Source: Chloroflexi bacterium HGW-Chloroflexi-10
GTDB lineage: Bacteria; Chloroflexota; Anaerolineae; Anaerolineales; Anaerolineaceae
NCBI GenBank assembly: GCA_002840755.1
Contig: PHBZ01000009.1
Location: 1-64,000 of the forward strand
DNA length: 64,000 nucleotides
Direction: 5' to 3'
Below are positions 44,463 through 53,871 of this stretch, piece after piece. The number at the start of each line of letters is the position of its first letter. Position 1 is the first letter of the stretch. Below the pieces are notes generated by a model. The model did no database searches and was not told the origin of the DNA. It was given only the letters and a program-made list of their open reading frames with translations. A program made the position numbers and the translations under genes.

Positions 44463-45488
44463 TTATAAATAATCCAGGAATGTCTGCACAACCTGGGGAT
44501 CGAATAGTACACCGGCATTATCAGAAATATAATCCAATACTTTTTTATGTTCCCAAGCCCGGCGATAGTAGCGATCATGCGAAAGGGCATCATACACATC
44601 CACCACCGCGAAAATTCTGGCGGTAATGGGGATGCTTGCTTCTCTCAGTCCCCGCGGATACCCGCTACCATTCCAACGCTCATGGTGATTATAAGGGATT
44701 TCAATCGCCGGGCGTAAATAATCGATAGGCAACAACATATCCCGAGCAATCACCGGATGTTTACGCATTTCTACCCATTCATCTTCGGTTAAAGGTGCCG
44801 GCTTGGTCAAGATACTATCCGGTATGGCCATTTTTCCAATATCGTGCAGCAATGCACCATGGCGTATATGGACAATACTCTCCAGGCCAATACCCATGGC
44901 CAATGCCATCTCTACCGTTTTATCAGTGACATGTTTGGAATGTGCACCCGTCTCCTGGTCGCGTTTATCCAGGGCCATTGCCCAGCCTTCAAGAGTAGCA
45001 CGGTAAGCCTGTTCCAGTTCAAATGTGGTCCGTGCCATCTGTTCTTCCATCAGTTTTATTTCCTGAATATCCTGAATAACCATCTGAATTGCCGGGCGTC
45101 CCAGGTAAGGGAATTGAGAAAAGCTGACCTTTACCACCACCCGGCTGCCATTCATGTGCCAAAGTTCCAATTCCACCGGTCCATGCCGCCCAGGGATAAC
45201 CGAAACCATTTCAAGATATGAAGAAAATATCATTTTAAAATCTGCAGGAATGTAGCGTTCTACTGGTTTACCAAACATCAGCATAGCGTTGGGAATCCCT
45301 AACAGCGAAGCCATAGCCGGATTGGCAAGCTCAATTACCCCATCCAGACGCGTAACGAGCATTCCATCTGGTAATAACGAAAAGAATTGACCCCAATATT
45401 GGTTAACATGAGGATCACCTGGCTGATATTGGTTGAGGCGGTGGATCGTGTAAAGTTGGCTGCGTTGTTTATTAAAATATTTTTCCAT
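44463..45488 (-). CDS. PAS / HD-GYP cyclic-di-GMP phosphodiesterase-like protein
   Basis: A 341-aa protein. A PAS domain (about 28-150: LLPDGMLVTRLDGVIELANP, PVELELWHMNG) leads into a coiled linker and an HD-GYP domain: AHSKHVTDKTVEMA, HGALLHDIGKMAIPD, and HHERWNGSGYPRGL with the GYP motif intact. Expected to cleave c-di-GMP. Last gene of the chemotaxis operon, 5 bp after the MCP gene. ATG at 45488 preferred over a TTG at 45521. Confidence 0.88.
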   Translation of the reverse strand: MEKYFNKQRSQLYTIHRLNQYQPGDPHVNQYWGQFFSLLPDGMLVTRLDGVIELANPAMASLLGIPNAMLMFGKPVERYIPADFKMIFSSYLEMVSVIPGRHGPVELELWHMNGSRVVVKVSFSQFPYLGRPAIQMVIQDIQEIKLMEEQMARTTFELEQAYRATLEGWAMALDKRDQETGAHSKHVTDKTVEMALAMGIGLESIVHIRHGALLHDIGKMAIPDSILTKPAPLTEDEWVEMRKHPVIARDMLLPIDYLRPAIEIPYNHHERWNGSGYPRGLREASIPITARIFAVVDVYDALSHDRYYRRAWEHKKVLDYISDNAGVLFDPQVVQTFLDYL

Positions 45489-45492
45489 TGAA

Positions 45493-47946
45493 TCATGCTT
45501 CCAAGGAGAATTTTGCCACAATTTGGTTTAAACCGATAGCCATTTCAGTGAGTTGTTTGGTCGTTTTGGTAACTTCATTCACTTGAGAACATATTTCTCC
45601 AACGGAGGAGACTAACGCAGCTGTTGCTGTATTATTTTTATCACCAAAACTGGTAATCCGGTCGATCGCTGCAGACATATCACTGGTTCTTTGTACTATT
45701 TCCTGTGTGAAACGGCTGTTGGTTTCCGCAACCATTTGAATGGTCTGCATGGTAGAAAGAAATTTTTCGGAAAGATGCTGCATTTGTTGAGTTGCATTGG
45801 CCACCATTCGTGTCTGCCCGGTCACTTGTTGGAAAGCGCCTAAAATCTGGTCCAATTTCTGGTCGGCTAATGCTGCTTCTGAGAGGCCAGCTTCCACCGA
45901 AATAGAACATTCCTGCATAGCTGCTGCTACTTCATTTGTGGCATTTTGAATATTATTCAGCAAAGAGCGTATTTCCTTTGTGGCCTGGCGAGAACTATCC
46001 GCCAAATGGTATACCTCTTTGGCTACCACCGCAAAACCGCCAATTTGCAGGTTGAATTTCGTTAATGACTTCATATTGAAACCGACCTGAACAATCCCAC
46101 ATTTATCCAACCGGGATACGCCGGCATATTTAAACACCTGTTTATCAAATGCTCTGAATTGCGCCGGCTGACACACACGTCCATTGCGCTGGTGGATTAA
46201 AGTACGAAATTCAGCGGTTTGTGGATCATCTTCGGGAAAACGAAACCCAAACAGGGAAGCTTCATTTCCCTCTACTATAACGCCATCATCATCGGTAATT
46301 AATATCTGATCCATGCCGGCCAAACTGCCCAATTCTACCCAATATGATTGTAAAATAACCGTTGGGGACATTTCCAACATACGAGCTACCATTTCACACG
46401 TAGCCAGCATAAATTTTTCTAAAATACCTTCGGTTAGAACCCTGGAATCGGATTCGGCATGAGCTGCTTCAATGGTAGCATTGATGGCCAACAAATTGGT
46501 TTGCGCAGCGATCTCTTCAATCGTTTCCACGATATTCCCAATTAGACCGGTTTGGTTTTGCATGGCCTGCATTTTTTCCTGCAATGCAAAAACCTGGTGT
46601 TGAATTGCTTCCATCGTACGCAGGGTATCACCAATGGTGACAGCACCACTACGAGCCGATTGTGCAGCCTCATCCGATTCATTGGCGACCTGAGCAATAC
46701 TGATTGATGCCTTTCCAATAGCCTCTGCCAGTGTTGCAGAAAGAGTAACCCCTTGTTCCACAGCTATTTGCTGTTTGTCACTTCCACTGACAATTTGCGC
46801 TATGGATTTTTGAGAAATCTTATTCAATTCCATAGCCTTATTTATACCGGTGAACTGCTCTGATGTATCCTGTGTAATCTGTTGAATTGTTTCGGTAATT
46901 TGTAAGGATGCCTGATTACTTTGAGTGACGCTCCATTGGATATCTGTCGCAAAATTATTTATGCATAACACCCTATCTTTTGCATCCTTCATTGAACCAC
47001 GCAACGCCATAATCATTTTCTGAAAAGAATTTCCCAATTCATCGCGGTCATTGATTGGCTTAAATTCAACAGCGCTATCACCGGCAGCATAGGTGTTAAC
47101 TGTTTCAGCCCATTTCTGCAGATACTGAAGTGAATTTTCCAGCTCACTGGCCAAATCGCCAATTTCATCTGCCCGATTCGTCGATTCTTTCAAGCCTGAT
47201 GAAGAATCACGCGACAGATCCCCGTTTGAAATTCGCTTCATAGCATCAGTAATTCCAATAATCGATGTGGTGAATGAGGCAGATACTATACGCGCTAATC
47301 CAAAACCGGCCAACAAACTTACACCAAATGCCGCCAACATCCACAGAAAAGTCTGCCTGACATTTTGAGCAATACTCTGCTGTTGGTCTGTCATTGCCAG
47401 CCAGGAATTTTCCTGGACTGTTTCTGAGAGATTCTCAATATTGACCTGAATCTGATGATTAGCAGATAAGCTCTCAGATAACTCTAATTGGGCAGTCGTC
47501 TCCTGCCGCTGTTGATTTTCTTCCATTAAAGCCGTAATCTGCAAGAAAGACTGGTGATACGATTCAATTGCCGCGGCTATATTGGGCAACTGCTGCTGAA
47601 TTTCAACATTGGCATATTTTTCGGTAATACCTTCCAGAGCTAACAGAGCTATATCTGCACTATTAATTGCCTGGAGAGCCTTTTCTTTATCCTGGGGATC
47701 ACCGGTAATCAAATAACTATTTTGATAATCTACAGCCTGCAGAATATGAGTATCTATAGCAACCGCATTTCGGAGGACAGGCAAATGCTGTTCCTGGCTG
47801 ACAGAAGCCGTTTTTGTGATCCCGGAGAGCTGGAAAAGGCTAATGATTGCCAGTAAAGCACTGCTAAAAATTATAAGCCCCAAAAACATGACCAGTATTT
47901 GTGTACCGATTTTTTGGTTAACAAAACCCGTGAATTTTTTCTTCAA
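45493..47946 (-). CDS. Methyl-accepting chemotaxis protein with sensor-like domain inserted in signalling tip
   Basis: An 817-aa receptor: helix 1 (about 15-38), an extracytoplasmic four-helix-type domain (40-198), helix 2 (200-220), HAMP (220-275), then the signalling coiled coil. The hairpin tip normally reads EAARAGEQGRGFAVVA. Here IEAAHAESDSR (to residue 502) is separated from GFAVVAKEV (637 on) by about 135 residues. The insert has a Cache/PAS-like pattern: QILITDDDGVIVEGNEASLF, AFDKQVFKYAGVSRLD, GIVQVGF. Both hairpin arms are otherwise complete. Follows cheW; likely coupled to the CheA of this operon. Confidence 0.9.
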   Translation of the reverse strand: MKKKFTGFVNQKIGTQILVMFLGLIIFSSALLAIISLFQLSGITKTASVSQEQHLPVLRNAVAIDTHILQAVDYQNSYLITGDPQDKEKALQAINSADIALLALEGITEKYANVEIQQQLPNIAAAIESYHQSFLQITALMEENQQRQETTAQLELSESLSANHQIQVNIENLSETVQENSWLAMTDQQQSIAQNVRQTFLWMLAAFGVSLLAGFGLARIVSASFTTSIIGITDAMKRISNGDLSRDSSSGLKESTNRADEIGDLASELENSLQYLQKWAETVNTYAAGDSAVEFKPINDRDELGNSFQKMIMALRGSMKDAKDRVLCINNFATDIQWSVTQSNQASLQITETIQQITQDTSEQFTGINKAMELNKISQKSIAQIVSGSDKQQIAVEQGVTLSATLAEAIGKASISIAQVANESDEAAQSARSGAVTIGDTLRTMEAIQHQVFALQEKMQAMQNQTGLIGNIVETIEEIAAQTNLLAINATIEAAHAESDSRVLTEGILEKFMLATCEMVARMLEMSPTVILQSYWVELGSLAGMDQILITDDDGVIVEGNEASLFGFRFPEDDPQTAEFRTLIHQRNGRVCQPAQFRAFDKQVFKYAGVSRLDKCGIVQVGFNMKSLTKFNLQIGGFAVVAKEVYHLADSSRQATKEIRSLLNNIQNATNEVAAAMQECSISVEAGLSEAALADQKLDQILGAFQQVTGQTRMVANATQQMQHLSEKFLSTMQTIQMVAETNSRFTQEIVQRTSDMSAAIDRITSFGDKNNTATAALVSSVGEICSQVNEVTKTTKQLTEMAIGLNQIVAKFSLEA

Positions 47947-48002: not shown

Positions 48003-48455
48003 CTATGCTGTCGCAAATGCCAATCTTTCCTGTTCTTCCACAGATAAAATTTTCTCCAGGTCTAATAAAATCACCAATTGACCTTCCAATTTGGCGATAC
48101 CCAGAATAAAAGCCGAATTAACCGTTGTGGCCATAGGTGGAGGTGGTTCAATAGCCTCATCCTGAATACGCAAAACCTGAGAGACTGCATCCACAATAAT
48201 ACCCACTTGCATACGGTTAATATTGGTAACTACAATACGGGTTTCACGGTCTGCTTTTTTCGATTCGACGCCAAAGCGCCGGCGTAAGTCCATAACCGGA
48301 ACCACTGTGCCACGCAGATTGGTAATCCCTTCCACAAAGCTAAGGGCATGCGGCATTTTGGTAATTGCCTGCATCTTGATAATCGATTCGACGCTTGTGA
48401 TATCCAAACCATAATGTTCGTCTGCTAATTCAAAAACAACCAGTTGTCTTTCCAT
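48003..48455 (-). CDS. cheW: Chemotaxis coupling protein CheW
   Basis: A 150-aa CheW-fold protein: QLVVFELADEHYGLDITSVE, then IIKMQAITKMPHALSFVEGI, TNLRGTVVPVMDLRRRFG and GIAKLEGQLVILLDLEKIL. Couples receptors to CheA. Located between cheX and the MCP gene. Confidence 0.93.
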   Translation of the reverse strand: MERQLVVFELADEHYGLDITSVESIIKMQAITKMPHALSFVEGITNLRGTVVPVMDLRRRFGVESKKADRETRIVVTNINRMQVGIIVDAVSQVLRIQDEAIEPPPPMATTVNSAFILGIAKLEGQLVILLDLEKILSVEEQERLAFATA

Positions 48456-48484: not shown

Positions 48485-49000
48485 TTAAGTTGTCAATGGT
48501 GCATTTGGCACCGGAATATGAGCTGAATCCATATTGGATCGCCCTTGACGTAATGAAAGGTGGATCATCACCCGCCCAAGTTCAGAAGACATCGGCAAAA
48601 TAATTCGGGGATAATCCAATGTGGAGAGTGATGCCCCTTTGCCAATTAAAACAGTAGGCGGAGAAATAGTAGCTTCATAACCCGTTTGGGCTAACTTAAC
48701 ACTGGCACGCCCGGTGATCACATTTCCCAATTCAGCGATCCCACTTTGCGCCAAACTGGTAAATTTCTCAAATTTTTCGCCCAGCATCTTTGTTGCAAAA
48801 CGAACTGCAGTTTCTTCGGTCATACTATAAAAAACAGTGCCATCTACCATGCCTACCAATGCTATGATTACAGTAACATCATCAGTGATATAGGCGTTCT
48901 TCTCCAGACTCAGGTCACCGCGCTGCATTGCAACACCGGTCTCTGCTTGCATGACCTCAAAGGCTGCTTCGACAAATGGATTCAAAAATTTTACATTCAT
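48485..49000 (-). CDS. cheX: CheX-type CheY-P phosphatase, copy 1
   Basis: A 171-aa protein: MNVKFLNPFVEAAFEVMQAE, the catalytic helix AQSGIAELGNVITGRASVKL (Glu and Asn of the E-L-G-N motif) and a beta strand ISPPTVLIGKG. A paralogue follows the same plan immediately upstream. CheX dephosphorylates CheY-P in bacteria without CheZ. Has a Ser/Pro-rich tail not seen in copy 2. Confidence 0.88.
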   Translation of the reverse strand: MNVKFLNPFVEAAFEVMQAETGVAMQRGDLSLEKNAYITDDVTVIIALVGMVDGTVFYSMTEETAVRFATKMLGEKFEKFTSLAQSGIAELGNVITGRASVKLAQTGYEATISPPTVLIGKGASLSTLDYPRIILPMSSELGRVMIHLSLRQGRSNMDSAHIPVPNAPLTT

Positions 49001-49012
49001 GCACTTCTCCCT

Positions 49013-49543
49013 TTAACCCTCAACCTGATGAGCATCTTTGGGACTAGTCAATTCGACATTATTCCCAATATGCATACCGGGAGGAGTCTCCCTTAGCGCC
49101 AGATGAACCGTCATGTTGCCAAGTTCAGTTTGTATTGGCACCACAATCCGAGAGAAATCAAGTGTGGAAATTTGAATTCCCTGGCCGATTATCATCGTAG
49201 GCGGCGAGATATTCGATTGATATCCAGCCCTTGAGAGTTTGATTGTTGCTCTACCGGTGATAACATTTCCCAATTCAGAAACACCACTTTGGGCTAAAGT
49301 GTCAAATTCGGTGAATTTCTGTCCCATCATTTGAGACACCATATTCAGTCCTGTGGAGAACGGCATACAATACAAAACAACACCTTGAACCTGACCAACC
49401 AGATTAATCAATACTGTGACTTCATCCGTTGTCATTGCTGTTGCTTGCATCGTCAGGTTACCACGCTTTACGGTAACCGCGACTTCTTTTTCAAGCACTT
49501 CCGCGGCTGCCTCAACAAACGGGTTTAGAAATTTTACATTCAT
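49013..49543 (-). CDS. cheX: CheX-type CheY-P phosphatase, copy 2
   Basis: A 176-aa paralogue: MNVKFLNPFVEAAAEVLEKE, AQSGVSELGNVITGRATIKL, NISPPTMIIGQG. The ELGN motif is kept, so both copies may be active, or they may form a heterodimer. Start at 49543 because the aligned copy starts there; GAAGGAGG precedes at about 10 bp. The 12-bp gap to copy 1 indicates tandem duplication. Confidence 0.88.
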   Translation of the reverse strand: MNVKFLNPFVEAAAEVLEKEVAVTVKRGNLTMQATAMTTDEVTVLINLVGQVQGVVLYCMPFSTGLNMVSQMMGQKFTEFDTLAQSGVSELGNVITGRATIKLSRAGYQSNISPPTMIIGQGIQISTLDFSRIVVPIQTELGNMTVHLALRETPPGMHIGNNVELTSPKDAHQVEG

Positions 49544-49594
49544 TGCCACGCGACCTCCTTCGCAGCAAACCATTGCCATATGATCATCATATTG

Positions 49595-50446
49595 TTAACT
49601 TTTCCAATCAAATCCGATGAAGGATTCTATTTCCTGAATTTGAGTCGTCATACACTCAATTAATTCCGGCATTCCATTTTCATTAAGACCCAAAATTTTC
49701 ATTGCTACCGGATCCAATTTGTATTGAAGGCCATCTTTCCCAATCCCATAACCTAAAACCATCATTGCTGCGTCGGCTACATGCACAGCGGCTGCAATGC
49801 GCCCATGTTCACCAGCCTGAGAAGGGTTATGATGAAATGCAATCGCTGACACCAGGTTCTCAGGCAGGTTCCACCGGCGGGCCATTTCTGCCCCTAATGT
49901 GGCATGATCAATACCAAACCTGGCATGTTCCAATTCTAAAAAGGTCAGGTCTTCCCATTCAGGACGATCAACGCGAACATCACGTAACAAGAATTCAAAA
50001 GCTAATTTTCCTATATCACATATCAGTCCCGCATGATACGCCTCTTCTGAAATTTGACGGCCAAAACGAGAAGCCAATGTTCTGGCGCCGGTTGCCACAC
50101 CCACTGCATGTTTCCACATTTCTCCACGCTCCAAATCGTATCCTGGTAAGGGACGATCCAGATAACTTGCTACAGTAGAAGCCAAAATCAAACTCTGCAC
50201 TGTGTTAAGCCCCAATACCATCACGGCCTGCTGCACTGTAGAGATCTGATTCCCGATACCGTAATAAGCTGAGTTAGCCCATCGCAAAACAAGGCTGGTA
50301 AGCACCTGATCTACTGCCATAATACTCGCAATTTCACTCACATTTGTATCCGGGTTGCGAATTAGCAAAAGTGCTTTCTGAGCAGTCTGTGGAATAGGAG
50401 GTAAATCTCCCGCTCGTTTAATTAATTGTTCAACCGTAATCACCAT
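49595..50446 (-). CDS. HDOD domain signalling protein
   Basis: A 283-aa protein filled by an HDOD domain: LPPIPQTAQKALLLIRNPDT, EIASIMAVDQVLTSLVLRWA, AVMVLGLNTVQSLILASTV, then YHAGLICDIGKLAFEFLL in place of the usual HD metal motif. HDOD proteins are signal-transduction partners without proven hydrolase activity and often sit with chemotaxis or c-di-GMP genes. Within the cheR-cheX interval. Confidence 0.85.
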   Translation of the reverse strand: MVITVEQLIKRAGDLPPIPQTAQKALLLIRNPDTNVSEIASIMAVDQVLTSLVLRWANSAYYGIGNQISTVQQAVMVLGLNTVQSLILASTVASYLDRPLPGYDLERGEMWKHAVGVATGARTLASRFGRQISEEAYHAGLICDIGKLAFEFLLRDVRVDRPEWEDLTFLELEHARFGIDHATLGAEMARRWNLPENLVSAIAFHHNPSQAGEHGRIAAAVHVADAAMMVLGYGIGKDGLQYKLDPVAMKILGLNENGMPELIECMTTQIQEIESFIGFDWKS

Positions 50447-50457
50447 AATTACACCTG

Positions 50458-51258
50458 TTATGCTTTGATATAAAAGGAAATTCCGTAATTTTTCAAGCCA
50501 ATTTCGGCAGGACGCGGAATAATTTCTGTTCCACCGAGAAATAAAACACCACCCGGTCTTAATGCCTGTTGGAATTTGGGATATAACTTCGCTTTGGCAT
50601 CATTAGTAAAATAAATAATCACATTGCGGCACACAATTAGATCAAAATTATTATCAAATTGGTCTGTCATTAAATTTTGTTCCCGAAAGGTGATCTTACT
50701 GGCAAGAGTCTTGCGAATAAAATGAGGGGGACCACCTGTCTCCAGGTATTTTCTTTTCTGAACATCCGTCAGATTTTTGGTTTCATCTGCCTGATATGGA
50801 CCACCCGCTTTGGCTTTTGCTAAAGCACCGCGGTCTAAATCTGTTGCCAGAATGGTATGGTTTTTCATTGGCATAATTTCTTCCAAAACCATGGCCAACG
50901 TATATGCTTCCACTCCAACCGAGCAGCCAGCACTCCATACGCGCAAACCGTCCTGAGGTGCTTTACGGGCAGCCGCATCTTTAATCAAACCCGGCAAAAC
51001 ATCTTTTATTAAAGCATTCCACCGATCCAGGTCACGGAAAAACTCAGTCACATTGATCGTAAGATAATTTCTAAAACGGGTTAATTCTGTTTCATCATGT
51101 GTAACCAGTTTAAAATATTCATCCCAGGATGAAAGTGTGGTGCGCACCAACCAGGAATCCAGGCGGCGGCGCATTTGCTCATCTTTATAATAAGTGAGAT
51201 CAATATTTAATATTTTTTTGACATTGTGTTGAATATTATTGTAGACATCCATTTCCAT
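50458..51258 (-). CDS. cheR: Chemotaxis receptor methyltransferase CheR
   Basis: A 266-aa enzyme with the N-terminal helical domain (DEQMRRRLDSWLVRT, NVTEFFRDLDRW) and the SAM-binding domain (VWSAGCSVGVEAYTLAMVLE, ILATDLDRGALAKAK, DLIVCRNVIIYF). Methylates receptor glutamates with SAM. A GTG at 51288 is possible; ATG 51258 follows AGGTGAG. Partner of cheB directly upstream. Confidence 0.93.
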   Translation of the reverse strand: MEMDVYNNIQHNVKKILNIDLTYYKDEQMRRRLDSWLVRTTLSSWDEYFKLVTHDETELTRFRNYLTINVTEFFRDLDRWNALIKDVLPGLIKDAAARKAPQDGLRVWSAGCSVGVEAYTLAMVLEEIMPMKNHTILATDLDRGALAKAKAGGPYQADETKNLTDVQKRKYLETGGPPHFIRKTLASKITFREQNLMTDQFDNNFDLIVCRNVIIYFTNDAKAKLYPKFQQALRPGGVLFLGGTEIIPRPAEIGLKNYGISFYIKA

Positions 51259-51277
51259 ATCGTTCTCACCTAGACCT

Positions 51278-52378
51278 TTATAAACCACTCATCATTTTAT
51301 AGACTGTTTTTACAATTGCCGAAGCAATTTCATGGATCGGCCAAATCTGGTCTGCAAACCCAGCTTCATAGACACTGCGCGGCATGCCCCATACCACACA
51401 AGTGGATTCATCTTCCGCTATAACAGGACCACCCGCACTACGAACCAAGCCGCATCCATTAGTTCCATCATGTCCCATGCCGGTGAGAATTACTGCCAGA
51501 GTGTTCTTGCCGTATATCTGGACAATGGAACTCATCGTCACATCCACTGCCGGACGAACGCCATGAATAGGAGGATTTTGATTCATGGTTGCTATCTCAT
51601 TGCGATCAAAGACCGTATGAAAACCTCCCGGCGCCAATAAAACCTGACCAACCAACAGTTGATCACCTGGCACGGCTTCCTTTACTTTCAGTGGCGAAAG
51701 ACTATCCAGGCGTTCTGCCAGGGAACGGGTAAAACCTGCCGGCATGTGTTGAATTACCATCACCGGTGCAGGCAAATCTGCTGGCAAGGCCGGTATCAAC
51801 ATATTCAGCGCCCGCGGCCCACCCGTTGAAGAACCAATGACTACAACAGGTTCATTACGCTGCCTGGTTCGGATTTTTTTATCTCCGGCTTCTCTTTTAC
51901 TATCTATTGACACAGTACTTTGTTGTTGTTTCAGTAATGGTGTCCTTACTTTCGCCTTAGCTACCCGAAGAATTTTGGCAGCTACGTCTTCCATCACAGA
52001 ATTTACACTGGCCTTTTGTTCCGGTTTGGTAATAAAATCTACAGCACCCAAGGTGAGCGCCTGTATGGTTTCAACCGCGCCCTCTTTCGTCATGCTACTT
52101 AACATCAGGACCGGCCGAGGAAAGCGCATCATGATTTCACGCAGCGTAGATAACCCATCTAACTTGGGCATTTCCACATCCAGCGTAACCACATCCGGCT
52201 GCAAACGCGGAATCATTAATAAAGCTTCCTCCCCATTTTGTGCGGAACCGACCACTTGAATCTGCGGATGTTTGTTCAGATATTGGGTGATGGTATAGCG
52301 CATAAACGCCGAATCATCCACTACAAGAACCTTGATTGAGTCGGATTTGGAAGCTCCTTCCAGGTGAATCTGCTCCAT
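51278..52378 (-). CDS. cheB: Chemotaxis response regulator / methylesterase CheB
   Basis: A 366-aa protein: receiver domain (VLVVDDSAFMRYTI, phospho-Asp in DVVTLDVEMPKLDGL, KPEQ loop) and a C-terminal methylesterase with the Ser nucleophile in VVVIGSSTGGPRALN, His in VIQHMPAGFT and Asp in GMGHDGTNG. Removes methyl groups from, or deamidates, receptors. The stop overlaps the region upstream of cheR. Confidence 0.95.
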   Translation of the reverse strand: MEQIHLEGASKSDSIKVLVVDDSAFMRYTITQYLNKHPQIQVVGSAQNGEEALLMIPRLQPDVVTLDVEMPKLDGLSTLREIMMRFPRPVLMLSSMTKEGAVETIQALTLGAVDFITKPEQKASVNSVMEDVAAKILRVAKAKVRTPLLKQQQSTVSIDSKREAGDKKIRTRQRNEPVVVIGSSTGGPRALNMLIPALPADLPAPVMVIQHMPAGFTRSLAERLDSLSPLKVKEAVPGDQLLVGQVLLAPGGFHTVFDRNEIATMNQNPPIHGVRPAVDVTMSSIVQIYGKNTLAVILTGMGHDGTNGCGLVRSAGGPVIAEDESTCVVWGMPRSVYEAGFADQIWPIHEIASAIVKTVYKMMSGL

Positions 52379-52384
52379 ATCAGC

Positions 52385-52741
52385 CTACGAGATCAGCTTT
52401 CGAATTGCGCCAATGACACGGTCGTGTTCAAATGGTTTGACAATAAAATCCTTTGCTCCGGATTTTATTGCTTCCAACACCACCGACTCCTGACCAAGTG
52501 CCGTAAGCATAATAACTTTGGCATTGGCATCAAACCCGCGAATCTCACGCAAGGCAGTTAAACCATCCATTTCCGGCATGGTCACATCCATTAATACAAG
52601 GTCGGGGTGATTTGCCTTATACATTTCTACCGCTCTTGCTCCGTTTTCAGCTTGAATCACATCAAAGCCGTCCCCAGTAAGCATTTTGGAAATGCGTACT
52701 CGCAAGAATTCTGCATCATCTACGATCAATATCTTTGACAT
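52385..52741 (-). CDS. cheY: Chemotaxis response regulator CheY
   Basis: A 118-aa single receiver domain: acidic pair D8-D9, phospho-acceptor D52 in LVLMDVTMPEMDG, T80 and K102. Binds the flagellar switch when phosphorylated by CheA. Located between cheD and cheB. Confidence 0.93.
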   Translation of the reverse strand: MSKILIVDDAEFLRVRISKMLTGDGFDVIQAENGARAVEMYKANHPDLVLMDVTMPEMDGLTALREIRGFDANAKVIMLTALGQESVVLEAIKSGAKDFIVKPFEHDRVIGAIRKLIS

Positions 52742-52765: not shown

Positions 52766-53251
52766 TCATAAATCGATTTCTTTTTCACCAATGACACGCA
52801 CCGTCATTTTCGTATCACCTACATAAAAACGCACCGTGCGTCCTCGGGTTCCACCTACATCTTCGCTTACTAGCTTCATGCGAAGTTTTGCGAATGTGGC
52901 ATGCGCGGCGGTAATATTGCGCGTGCCAATATCAAAAGTTTTTGAAAGGCCAGGTGCGGTTAACATATTCGCCCCACCAGCCATCCGTGTCACCAATCGA
53001 TTGCTGTCTGCACCGGCTTTGATCATATCTTCGATCAAACCCAGAATACCGCTATCGACAAATTTAGGGTTTAGAGGGTCGGTTCCATTATTTTTTTCCG
53101 GCAAAACAGCATGCATCAATCCACAGATTCGCCTAACGGGATCTACCATCCCAATACCCAGGCAGGAGCCCAACCCATACGCCACCAAGACGTCGAGTGG
53201 GTCACGACTGACAACCCTTTCACCTAAACCTACACTAATGGGATCTCTCAT
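52766..53251 (-). CDS. cheD: Chemoreceptor glutamine deamidase CheD
   Basis: A 161-aa protein with the CheD motif VAYGLGSCLGIGMVDPVRR (catalytic Cys) and ICGLMHAVLPE (His). A TRMAGGANML loop follows, then GGTRGRTVRFYVGDTKM. Deamidates receptor glutamines and binds CheC. Directly after cheC, as is common. Confidence 0.93.
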   Translation of the reverse strand: MRDPISVGLGERVVSRDPLDVLVAYGLGSCLGIGMVDPVRRICGLMHAVLPEKNNGTDPLNPKFVDSGILGLIEDMIKAGADSNRLVTRMAGGANMLTAPGLSKTFDIGTRNITAAHATFAKLRMKLVSEDVGGTRGRTVRFYVGDTKMTVRVIGEKEIDL

Positions 53252-53256
53252 ACCAG

Positions 53257-53871
53257 TTACACCCCTGCTTGGATTATTTTCAGCGTTTCAGGATCAGGGA
53301 TTACCCAAAAATTGGTTTCTACTTCACGATCCCCATTTTCTAAATTAGCCTGAAGCAACAAAACATGTTCCGAAATGCCGCCCATAGTAGCAATAATAAT
53401 ATCCAAAATAGCGCCAATCATATCCACCATTACGGCTGGTGGCGTAGGACGAATATCTCTGCCGGTAATAGCTGCCAATGTGTTCAAAAAAAATGTGCCT
53501 GCCTGATTTCCCACTTCTGCCAGAGCGGAGCGTTCCAATGATCCGATACTTTGAGTGGTTCCCGGTTCATTTTCCATCATCAAATCAACCAATTCCATGG
53601 CTTTCTGGTATGGAATGATTAACATAATCTGTCCAGATAAACCGCCTTCAGCGCGCAAATATATCCCGATGGCTTCCATTTCTGGCCCGCCCAGCAAATT
53701 TGGAATATCCTTGAGAGCGACTAGATGCGCTCCCGGATTTTGAACTGTAAGCTGCACGCCTAACAAGCCAGAAAAACCACGGGCTGCATTGGTAATACCT
53801 TCCCGTGCAATGACCTGTAACATAGCCATCAATTTTTCGTCAAAAGGAGTTCCATTTATTTCTTCAACCAT
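53257..53871 (-). CDS. cheC: CheY-P phosphatase CheC
   Basis: A 204-aa CheC-family protein. It shows an E-N active-site helix (SALAEVGNQAGTFFLNTLAA) and the matching second half (TPPAVMVDMIGAILDIIIAT). It has a single clear E---N motif, as in CheC proteins that act partly as regulators of CheD. Lies between cheA and cheD. Confidence 0.9.
   Translation of the reverse strand: MVEEINGTPFDEKLMAMLQVIAREGITNAARGFSGLLGVQLTVQNPGAHLVALKDIPNLLGGPEMEAIGIYLRAEGGLSGQIMLIIPYQKAMELVDLMMENEPGTTQSIGSLERSALAEVGNQAGTFFLNTLAAITGRDIRPTPPAVMVDMIGAILDIIIATMGGISEHVLLLQANLENGDREVETNFWVIPDPETLKIIQAGV

Follow-up and report, generated by a model that had tools for sequence, protein, structure and literature searches.

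A Cache-like domain, putatively a sensor, splits the signalling tip of a chemoreceptor in Anaerolineaceae

A chemoreceptor (MCP) gene of a che operon in Chloroflexi bacterium HGW-Chloroflexi-10 encodes a protein whose hairpin tip is interrupted by a domain that, judged by sequence comparison, is homologous to the presumably extracytoplasmic sensor module of other MCPs. We assign a probability of roughly 0.6 to the reading that this insert works as a cytosolic sensor right where CheA and CheW make contact, and that it would bind a ligand there and signal. The insertion site recurs in 10 full-length MCPs and 11 mini-proteins, all distinct, which argues for such a tip sensor. The novelty lies in the placement of the domain in the tip, while the components remain an MCP and a Cache-like domain. 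Throughout, the window denotes the whole 64,000-nt stretch of DNA analyzed (contig PHBZ01000009.1, positions 1 to 64,000).

Results

The receptor and its interrupted tip

The window receptor was recognized as an MCP by PF00015 (76.6 bits, cut-off 34.6) and by the HAMP model PF00672 (29.8 bits, cut-off 25), and the signalling-domain profile PF00015 aligns to it as two separate halves (Table 1). At the hairpin turn, 133 residues separate SDSR from GGFAVVA; compared with the paralogs, which read AGEHGK-GF at this point, the break separates the K/R of the G[KR]GF motif from the G that follows it. The initial annotation had placed a split of about 135 residues between SR and GGFAVVA, at 46039-46449, and its description is borne out, with those coordinates comprising the exact insert of 133 residues plus D-S-R and one G. 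An uninterrupted hairpin tip is a usual MCP trait that the window receptor lacks, and the protein is accordingly a variant MCP rather than an ordinary one. From predicted topology only, the insert is expected to be cytosolic, being placed after TM2 and the HAMP domain. The external region of the same-genus ortholog matches HBM (PF16591) over the cut-off.

PF00015 gave 15 matches in the genome, corresponding to 12 other MCPs with continuous matches, the two halves of the window receptor and one fragment. The ungapped tip NAAIEAARAG[ED][HQ]GKGF[AS]VVADEVRKLA is present in all 12 of the continuous MCPs. The fragment (G000:C91:254099-254287, L108) contains an internal stop and is probably a remnant; it was left out of the tip comparison. 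Outside the insert, the tip of the window receptor departs from this pattern, with H in place of the R of EAAR and AKEVYHLA in place of ADEVRKLA, so that the conserved MCP tip assumed in the initial annotation is indeed split as described but is not wholly standard in its remaining parts. The H after EAA and the altered ADEVRKLA block could weaken the CheA/CheW contact in this receptor, whereas several relatives with the insert retain the standard residues. Residues N381, E385 and R388, important in the tip of Escherichia coli Tsr, presumably correspond to N489, E493 and H496 of the window receptor (by eye); N489 and E493 are invariant in the 13-row alignment, and the third position is R in several relatives.

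Table 1. Features of the receptor and the surrounding che operon (window coordinates)
Feature	Position	Strand	Basis or remark
PAS + HD_5 (HD-GYP-like) protein	44463..45521	-	Pfam; ORF overlaps MCP end by 29 nt
MCP with tip insertion, 817 aa	45493..47946	-	ORF; PF00015 and HAMP over cut-off; TM by hydropathy
Ascending signalling arm (GGFAVVAKEVYHLAD...)	45742..46041	-	PF00015 positions 69-167 at 45742-46038
Inserted Cache-like domain, residues 503-635	46042..46440	-	Sequence comparison; structure prediction
Descending signalling arm to tip (...TNLLAINATIEAAHAESDSR)	46441..46680	-	PF00015 positions 3-64 at 46453-46680
HAMP domain, residues 223-277	47116..47280	-	Pfam match
Predicted TM1, external region of ~164 aa, TM2	47293..47898	-	Hydropathy (TM 17-35, 200-218)
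CheW	48003..48455	-	Pfam
CheX-like	48485..49000	-	Pfam
CheX-like, second copy	49013..49579	-	Pfam
HDOD protein	49595..50446	-	Pfam
CheR	50458..51288	-	Pfam
CheB	51278..52378	-	Pfam
CheY-like receiver	52385..52741	-	
CheD	52766..53251	-	
CheC-like	53257..53871	-	
CheA, sole one found in the genome	53884..56178	-	Pfam

Authenticity and constraint

A second genome of the same genus (G002) has an MCP of the same split-tip design, encoded in the same operon. Over 132 codons, the insert shares 70.5% identity with that of this ortholog (pS 0.76, pN 0.20); identity drops to 51-52% in the arms and to 31% across the first 220 residues, which hold the external sensor. Among the receptor parts compared, only the two tip flanks match or exceed the conservation of the insert, with 89% identity over the last 37 codons before it and 71% over the first 35 codons after it. 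With pS at 0.74-0.78, synonymous sites have reached or nearly reached saturation, and no dN/dS is given. The GC content is 0.424 in the insert and 0.431 in the whole gene.

The split-tip architecture is also present in the isolate Bellilinea caldifistulae GOMI-1 (Chloroflexota, Anaerolineaceae; G010). With the site common to 10 distinct MCPs from 10 genomes, this isolate included, misassembly is excluded; the nine genomes beyond that of the window and the saturation of synonymous sites relative to the ortholog settle the concern about an assembly artefact raised in the initial annotation.

Distribution and forms of the domain

For the family, 147 genomes were sampled, of which 21 matched at E ≤ 1e-5 and were then inspected for context. 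The tip or mini form is rare: it was found in 13 of these 147 genomes (10 have a copy outside the tip, two have both), in at least five of 396 genomes of the class (G000, G010, G220, G292 and G358, with at least 13 matched at 1e-10) and in at least two of 400 genomes of the phylum (G000 and G010, with at least four matched), the class and phylum counts being lower bounds from the best 10 or fewer candidates scored per genome. The three samples overlap and their counts are not additive. G220, G292 and G358 belong to a second family of the class.

A scan of a named genome collection yielded 42 loci. Of these, 12 belong to the tip and mini forms, and their record titles all read Chloroflexi, Anaerolineae, Anaerolineaceae or Bellilinea; the remaining 30 belong by title to other phyla and have no tip motif beside the domain, an absence limited by a query built from tip copies and two peptide patterns. 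With the window insert alone, the named-genome scan returned 27 stretches, none of them confirmed, and phage records contained no match to the insert.

The domain occurs in three forms. Form (a) comprises the full-length tip-insert MCPs; searches with the domain gave 10 distinct proteins of this kind, the window receptor included (G000, G002, G008, G010, G061, G066, G106, G220, G292 and G358). Form (b) comprises mini-proteins of 220-277 aa (stop-to-stop) that consist only of the tip arms and the domain, with 11 distinct members in seven genomes. Form (c), defined by a missing tip motif, includes copies without tip arms, many of them in MCPs whose tip is intact, where they come after a hydrophobic N-terminal segment, as well as short proteins (L043, L052). 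It also includes a related domain in a SpoIIE-type phosphatase protein (L027; HAMP match below the cut-off), indicating that the sensor group is not limited to chemotaxis.

By simple hydropathy, four of the 10 full-length tip-insert MCPs (L055, L056, G008 and G061) have no room for an external sensor, with at most 43 residues between successive TM segments. An external region is present in the other six, counting L053, which gave a single TM segment and was included for its dCache match. L053 and L057 additionally carry a C-terminal CZB domain along with the external sensor, giving up to three sensor regions in one receptor.

Relationship to Cache sensor modules

Homology of the insert to sensor modules of membrane receptors, and thereby to the Cache superfamily, is exemplified by L063, which is 45% identical to the tip copy of L041. 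No Pfam Cache model exceeded its cut-off on the window insert (sCache_3_2, 13.0 bits vs 28.4), and sCache_3_2 was matched at E ≤ 1 by seven of the 20 alignment members (best 3.3e-4). Searches with the insert and its tip relatives linked it to MCP sensor modules but not to a Pfam model over the cut-off, and no NCBIfam model named the sensor-domain group in the five proteins scanned. Extracytoplasmic location, a usual but not universal Cache trait, is not shared by the insert according to its predicted topology.

Five residues, Q576, F580, Q593, D614 and Q620 (window numbering), are common to all 21 tip and mini copies, and they recur in 46, 49, 49, 49 and 51, respectively, of the 51 non-tip copies. 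The arms flanking the domain contribute the invariant columns N63, I66, E67, A69, F212, A216, E218 and L222 of the 13-row alignment. No cofactor motif was seen in the insert, and among positions with at least 85% conservation across the tip copies there is neither a His nor a Cys common to them. Metal binding by the domain is suggested by gene neighbours only.

In L068, the stretch following the domain weakly matches 7k5n, a diguanylate cyclase sensor domain (E 8e-5), and the chemoreceptor PctC (E 0.29). Both are double-Cache proteins, and on these weak matches the inserted domain resembles the distal one of the two modules in such a protein. Neither a PDB sequence search with the insert alone (best E 1.4) nor one with a 20-row profile returned a Cache chain. 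The best profile match, a MerR-like regulator (E 0.0021 over 46 positions), was taken as chance, as was a DUF294 nucleotidyltransferase match (E 0.017, below the cut-off) seen in one of the 20 members only.

Domain trees, from which domains shorter than 95 aa (both L050 pieces) and contained duplicates (e.g., L044) were left out, group the tip and mini copies next to those of Candidatus Frackibacter and Anaerolineae MCPs. In the tree of 72 rows the tip copies need two changes, and a single branch sets them apart from all others in 47% of bootstrap trees; removal of L038 places them on one side of a branch with support 80/81, and removal of both L038 and L006 again requires two changes (52%). 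These trees leave room for a single origin of all tip copies.

Predicted structure

AlphaFold2 modeling of 300 residues of the window receptor (13 rows) gave a pLDDT of 84.4 and a pTM of 0.53. In the model, one unbroken helix (2-100) leads out of the descending arm and into the domain, which continues as strands and helices in PAS/Cache-like order; a short helix at 199-205 precedes the ascending helix at 211-299. Mini-protein L060 was modeled with a pLDDT of 84.1 and a pTM of 0.66, as helix 4-74, the domain and helix 175-224. The predicted order of elements, a long N-terminal helix and a PAS-like sheet, would be in keeping with a Cache fold. At a pTM of 0.53, the model of the window receptor does not confirm hairpin packing of the two arms. 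The small, folded, sensor-like domain envisaged in the initial annotation is supported by homology, recurrence in 10 MCPs, constraint and the pLDDT of 84.

The che operon

The receptor gene lies in an operon-like array with the order CheA-CheC-CheD-CheY-CheB-CheR-HDOD-CheX-CheX-CheW-MCP-HD-GYP, and a PF02895 search of the genome found no second CheA. The gene order is retained throughout in G002; in G106, from another genus, it is retained as far as the MCP, beginning with a CheA truncated at the contig start, with neither a CheC nor an HD-GYP match on the 16 kb examined. The CheW of the window was matched at 1e-20 in two of eight genomes of the genus, both with a tip-insert MCP. A second CheW-like match (52% identity) lies distant from the che operon (G000:C54:79911-80342, L115) and has a counterpart in G002. 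The two adjacent CheX-like genes (48485-49579) are retained in two other genomes (L110, L122). The ORFs of the MCP and the HD-GYP-like protein overlap over 45493-45521, with the same overlap in the same-genus genome (L110, 7531-7559); it may reflect translational coupling or a later true start.

Mini-proteins and their neighbours

One genus accounts for eight mini-protein loci in five genomes. At five of these eight, a Fur-family gene and the CbiM/CbiQ/ABC genes of a cobalt/nickel-type transporter are neighbours (Pfam was run on the L061 neighbours and the L060 Fur gene only, other neighbours being recognized by sequence). In four of the five (L061, L062, L118 and L119), the gene directly upstream of the mini-protein, on its strand, encodes an MCP without an external sensor, whose two TM segments are 13-30 residues apart and whose tip is intact; the fifth, L060, lacks such an MCP. 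We regard it as possible that the MCP and mini-protein of these four loci form a metal-linked chemosensory pair. The remaining loci (L064, L065 and L120) are without the transporter, and at L120 the mini-protein has MCP genes to both sides on its own strand, one about 2 kb upstream and one 0.9 kb downstream. Similar ORFs of 156-158 aa were observed just upstream of the mini-protein at L065 (4291-4758) and L120 (4259-4732), in two genomes of one genus.

Only one genus showed the mini-protein in association with an adjacent MCP and a transporter, and mini-protein neighbours look unrelated in G000 (L117) and G032 (L059, L121). The window genome's own mini-protein (G000:C71:6749-7156; L002, L117) has 235 aa from a GTG start and is 35% identical to the insert. 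It adjoins a gene resembling peptide-chain release factor 3 (named by eye).

Discussion

Proposed mechanism and alternatives

We propose that a Cache-type sensor module sits in the cytosolic hairpin tip, with the descending arm in the place of TM1 of a membrane Cache receptor, the ascending arm in that of TM2, and a short helix leading back from the last strand of the domain to the ascending arm. A cytosolic small molecule, once bound, would shift the helices where CheA and CheW dock, and an internal signal would thereby gate the kinase directly, in combination with the external signal arriving through HAMP. The mini-proteins may supply the sensor-tip unit in trans, probably joining the baseplate beside an MCP without an external sensor. 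A fuller version, in which the tip sensor gates CheA with no signal having to pass down the receptor, and the mini-receptor enters arrays and lends its sensor, possibly for nickel/cobalt status, to sensorless MCPs, is offered tentatively, with the odds somewhat against it.

It is unlikely, though still worth weighing, that the domain is instead a non-sensing structural element that alters array spacing or packing or docks CheA, CheW or CheX. Such a role would agree with a domain for which no ligand is known, with its position adjoining the expected baseplate and with two CheX-like genes in the operon; however, the conserved residues are common to sensor-module copies outside tips, which a mere spacer would not need, and the mini-proteins exist on their own. 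Less probable still is a receptor uncoupled from CheA and re-targeted, for example to the PAS-HD-GYP-like neighbour, with cyclic-di-GMP as output. The 29-nt overlap of the two ORFs, here and in the same-genus ortholog, and the tip substitutions of the window receptor point in that direction, but the receptor is encoded beside CheW in the only CheA operon found, the second genus keeps the che order to the MCP with no HD-GYP-like match on the 16 kb examined, and relatives have standard tip residues. An artefact or parasite, i.e., a misassembly or an intein-like element removed post-translationally, is dismissed as extremely improbable: the genome contamination estimate of 6.67% and the precise insertion in a conserved motif, typical of inteins, would suit it, but the same architecture in nine other genomes, an isolate among them, and the saturated synonymous sites do not, an intein or mobile element was rejected with no Hint or homing-endonuclease Pfam match and with homology to MCP sensor modules, and the junctions R-V and I-G do not agree with splice-site residues when compared with intein splice motifs.

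Significance

The tip of MCPs shows high conservation, and the way in which a receptor alters CheA activity at this point is still debated. The window receptor and its relatives indicate that the tip tolerates a 133-residue domain, and the retention of this arrangement in related bacteria suggests that they may read an internal signal at the switch. A natural receptor with a sensor at the tip would separate local tip control from long-range signalling through HAMP and the methylation bundle, and the mini-proteins of 220-277 aa offer a small unit for a direct test of tip-to-kinase coupling.

Comparison with known systems

Full-text searches on tip insertions, Anaerolineae receptors, Cache domains and Tsr tip contacts, in literature mostly outside subscription journals, gave no paper whose title or opening abstract lines describe a domain in an MCP tip; within this range the search agrees with the initial annotation, which knew of no characterized example. 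The nearest parallel to the sensorless MCPs with an adjacent mini-protein is CetA/CetB, the bipartite energy-taxis receptor of Campylobacter jejuni, in which the PAS protein CetB is proposed to act on HAMP (PMC2628428). Both cases pair a membrane receptor with a soluble sensor from an adjacent gene; CetB, as described there, is PAS-based, whereas in the mini-proteins a Cache-like domain is flanked by tip arms and nothing else. Cache families are principally extracellular except Diacid_rec and YkuI_C (Upadhyay et al., PMC4822843), and these mainly intracellular domains share the location of the insert but are not described, in the available part of that survey, as inserted in a chemoreceptor hairpin.

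Receptors carrying CZB are similar in having an added cytosolic domain, and L053 and L057 combine CZB with the tip insert; in these two proteins, however, CZB is C-terminal to the signalling domain and not in the tip. Close in composition are the Cache-sensor transmembrane MCPs of Candidatus Frackibacter (L063), Acetoanaerobium (L010) and Paenibacillus (L009), which, like the window receptor, join homologous sensor and signalling domains in one protein. Their sensor is N-terminal, following a hydrophobic segment, and their tip is intact, whereas in the window receptor the sensor module is predicted to be cytosolic and lies inside the tip itself.
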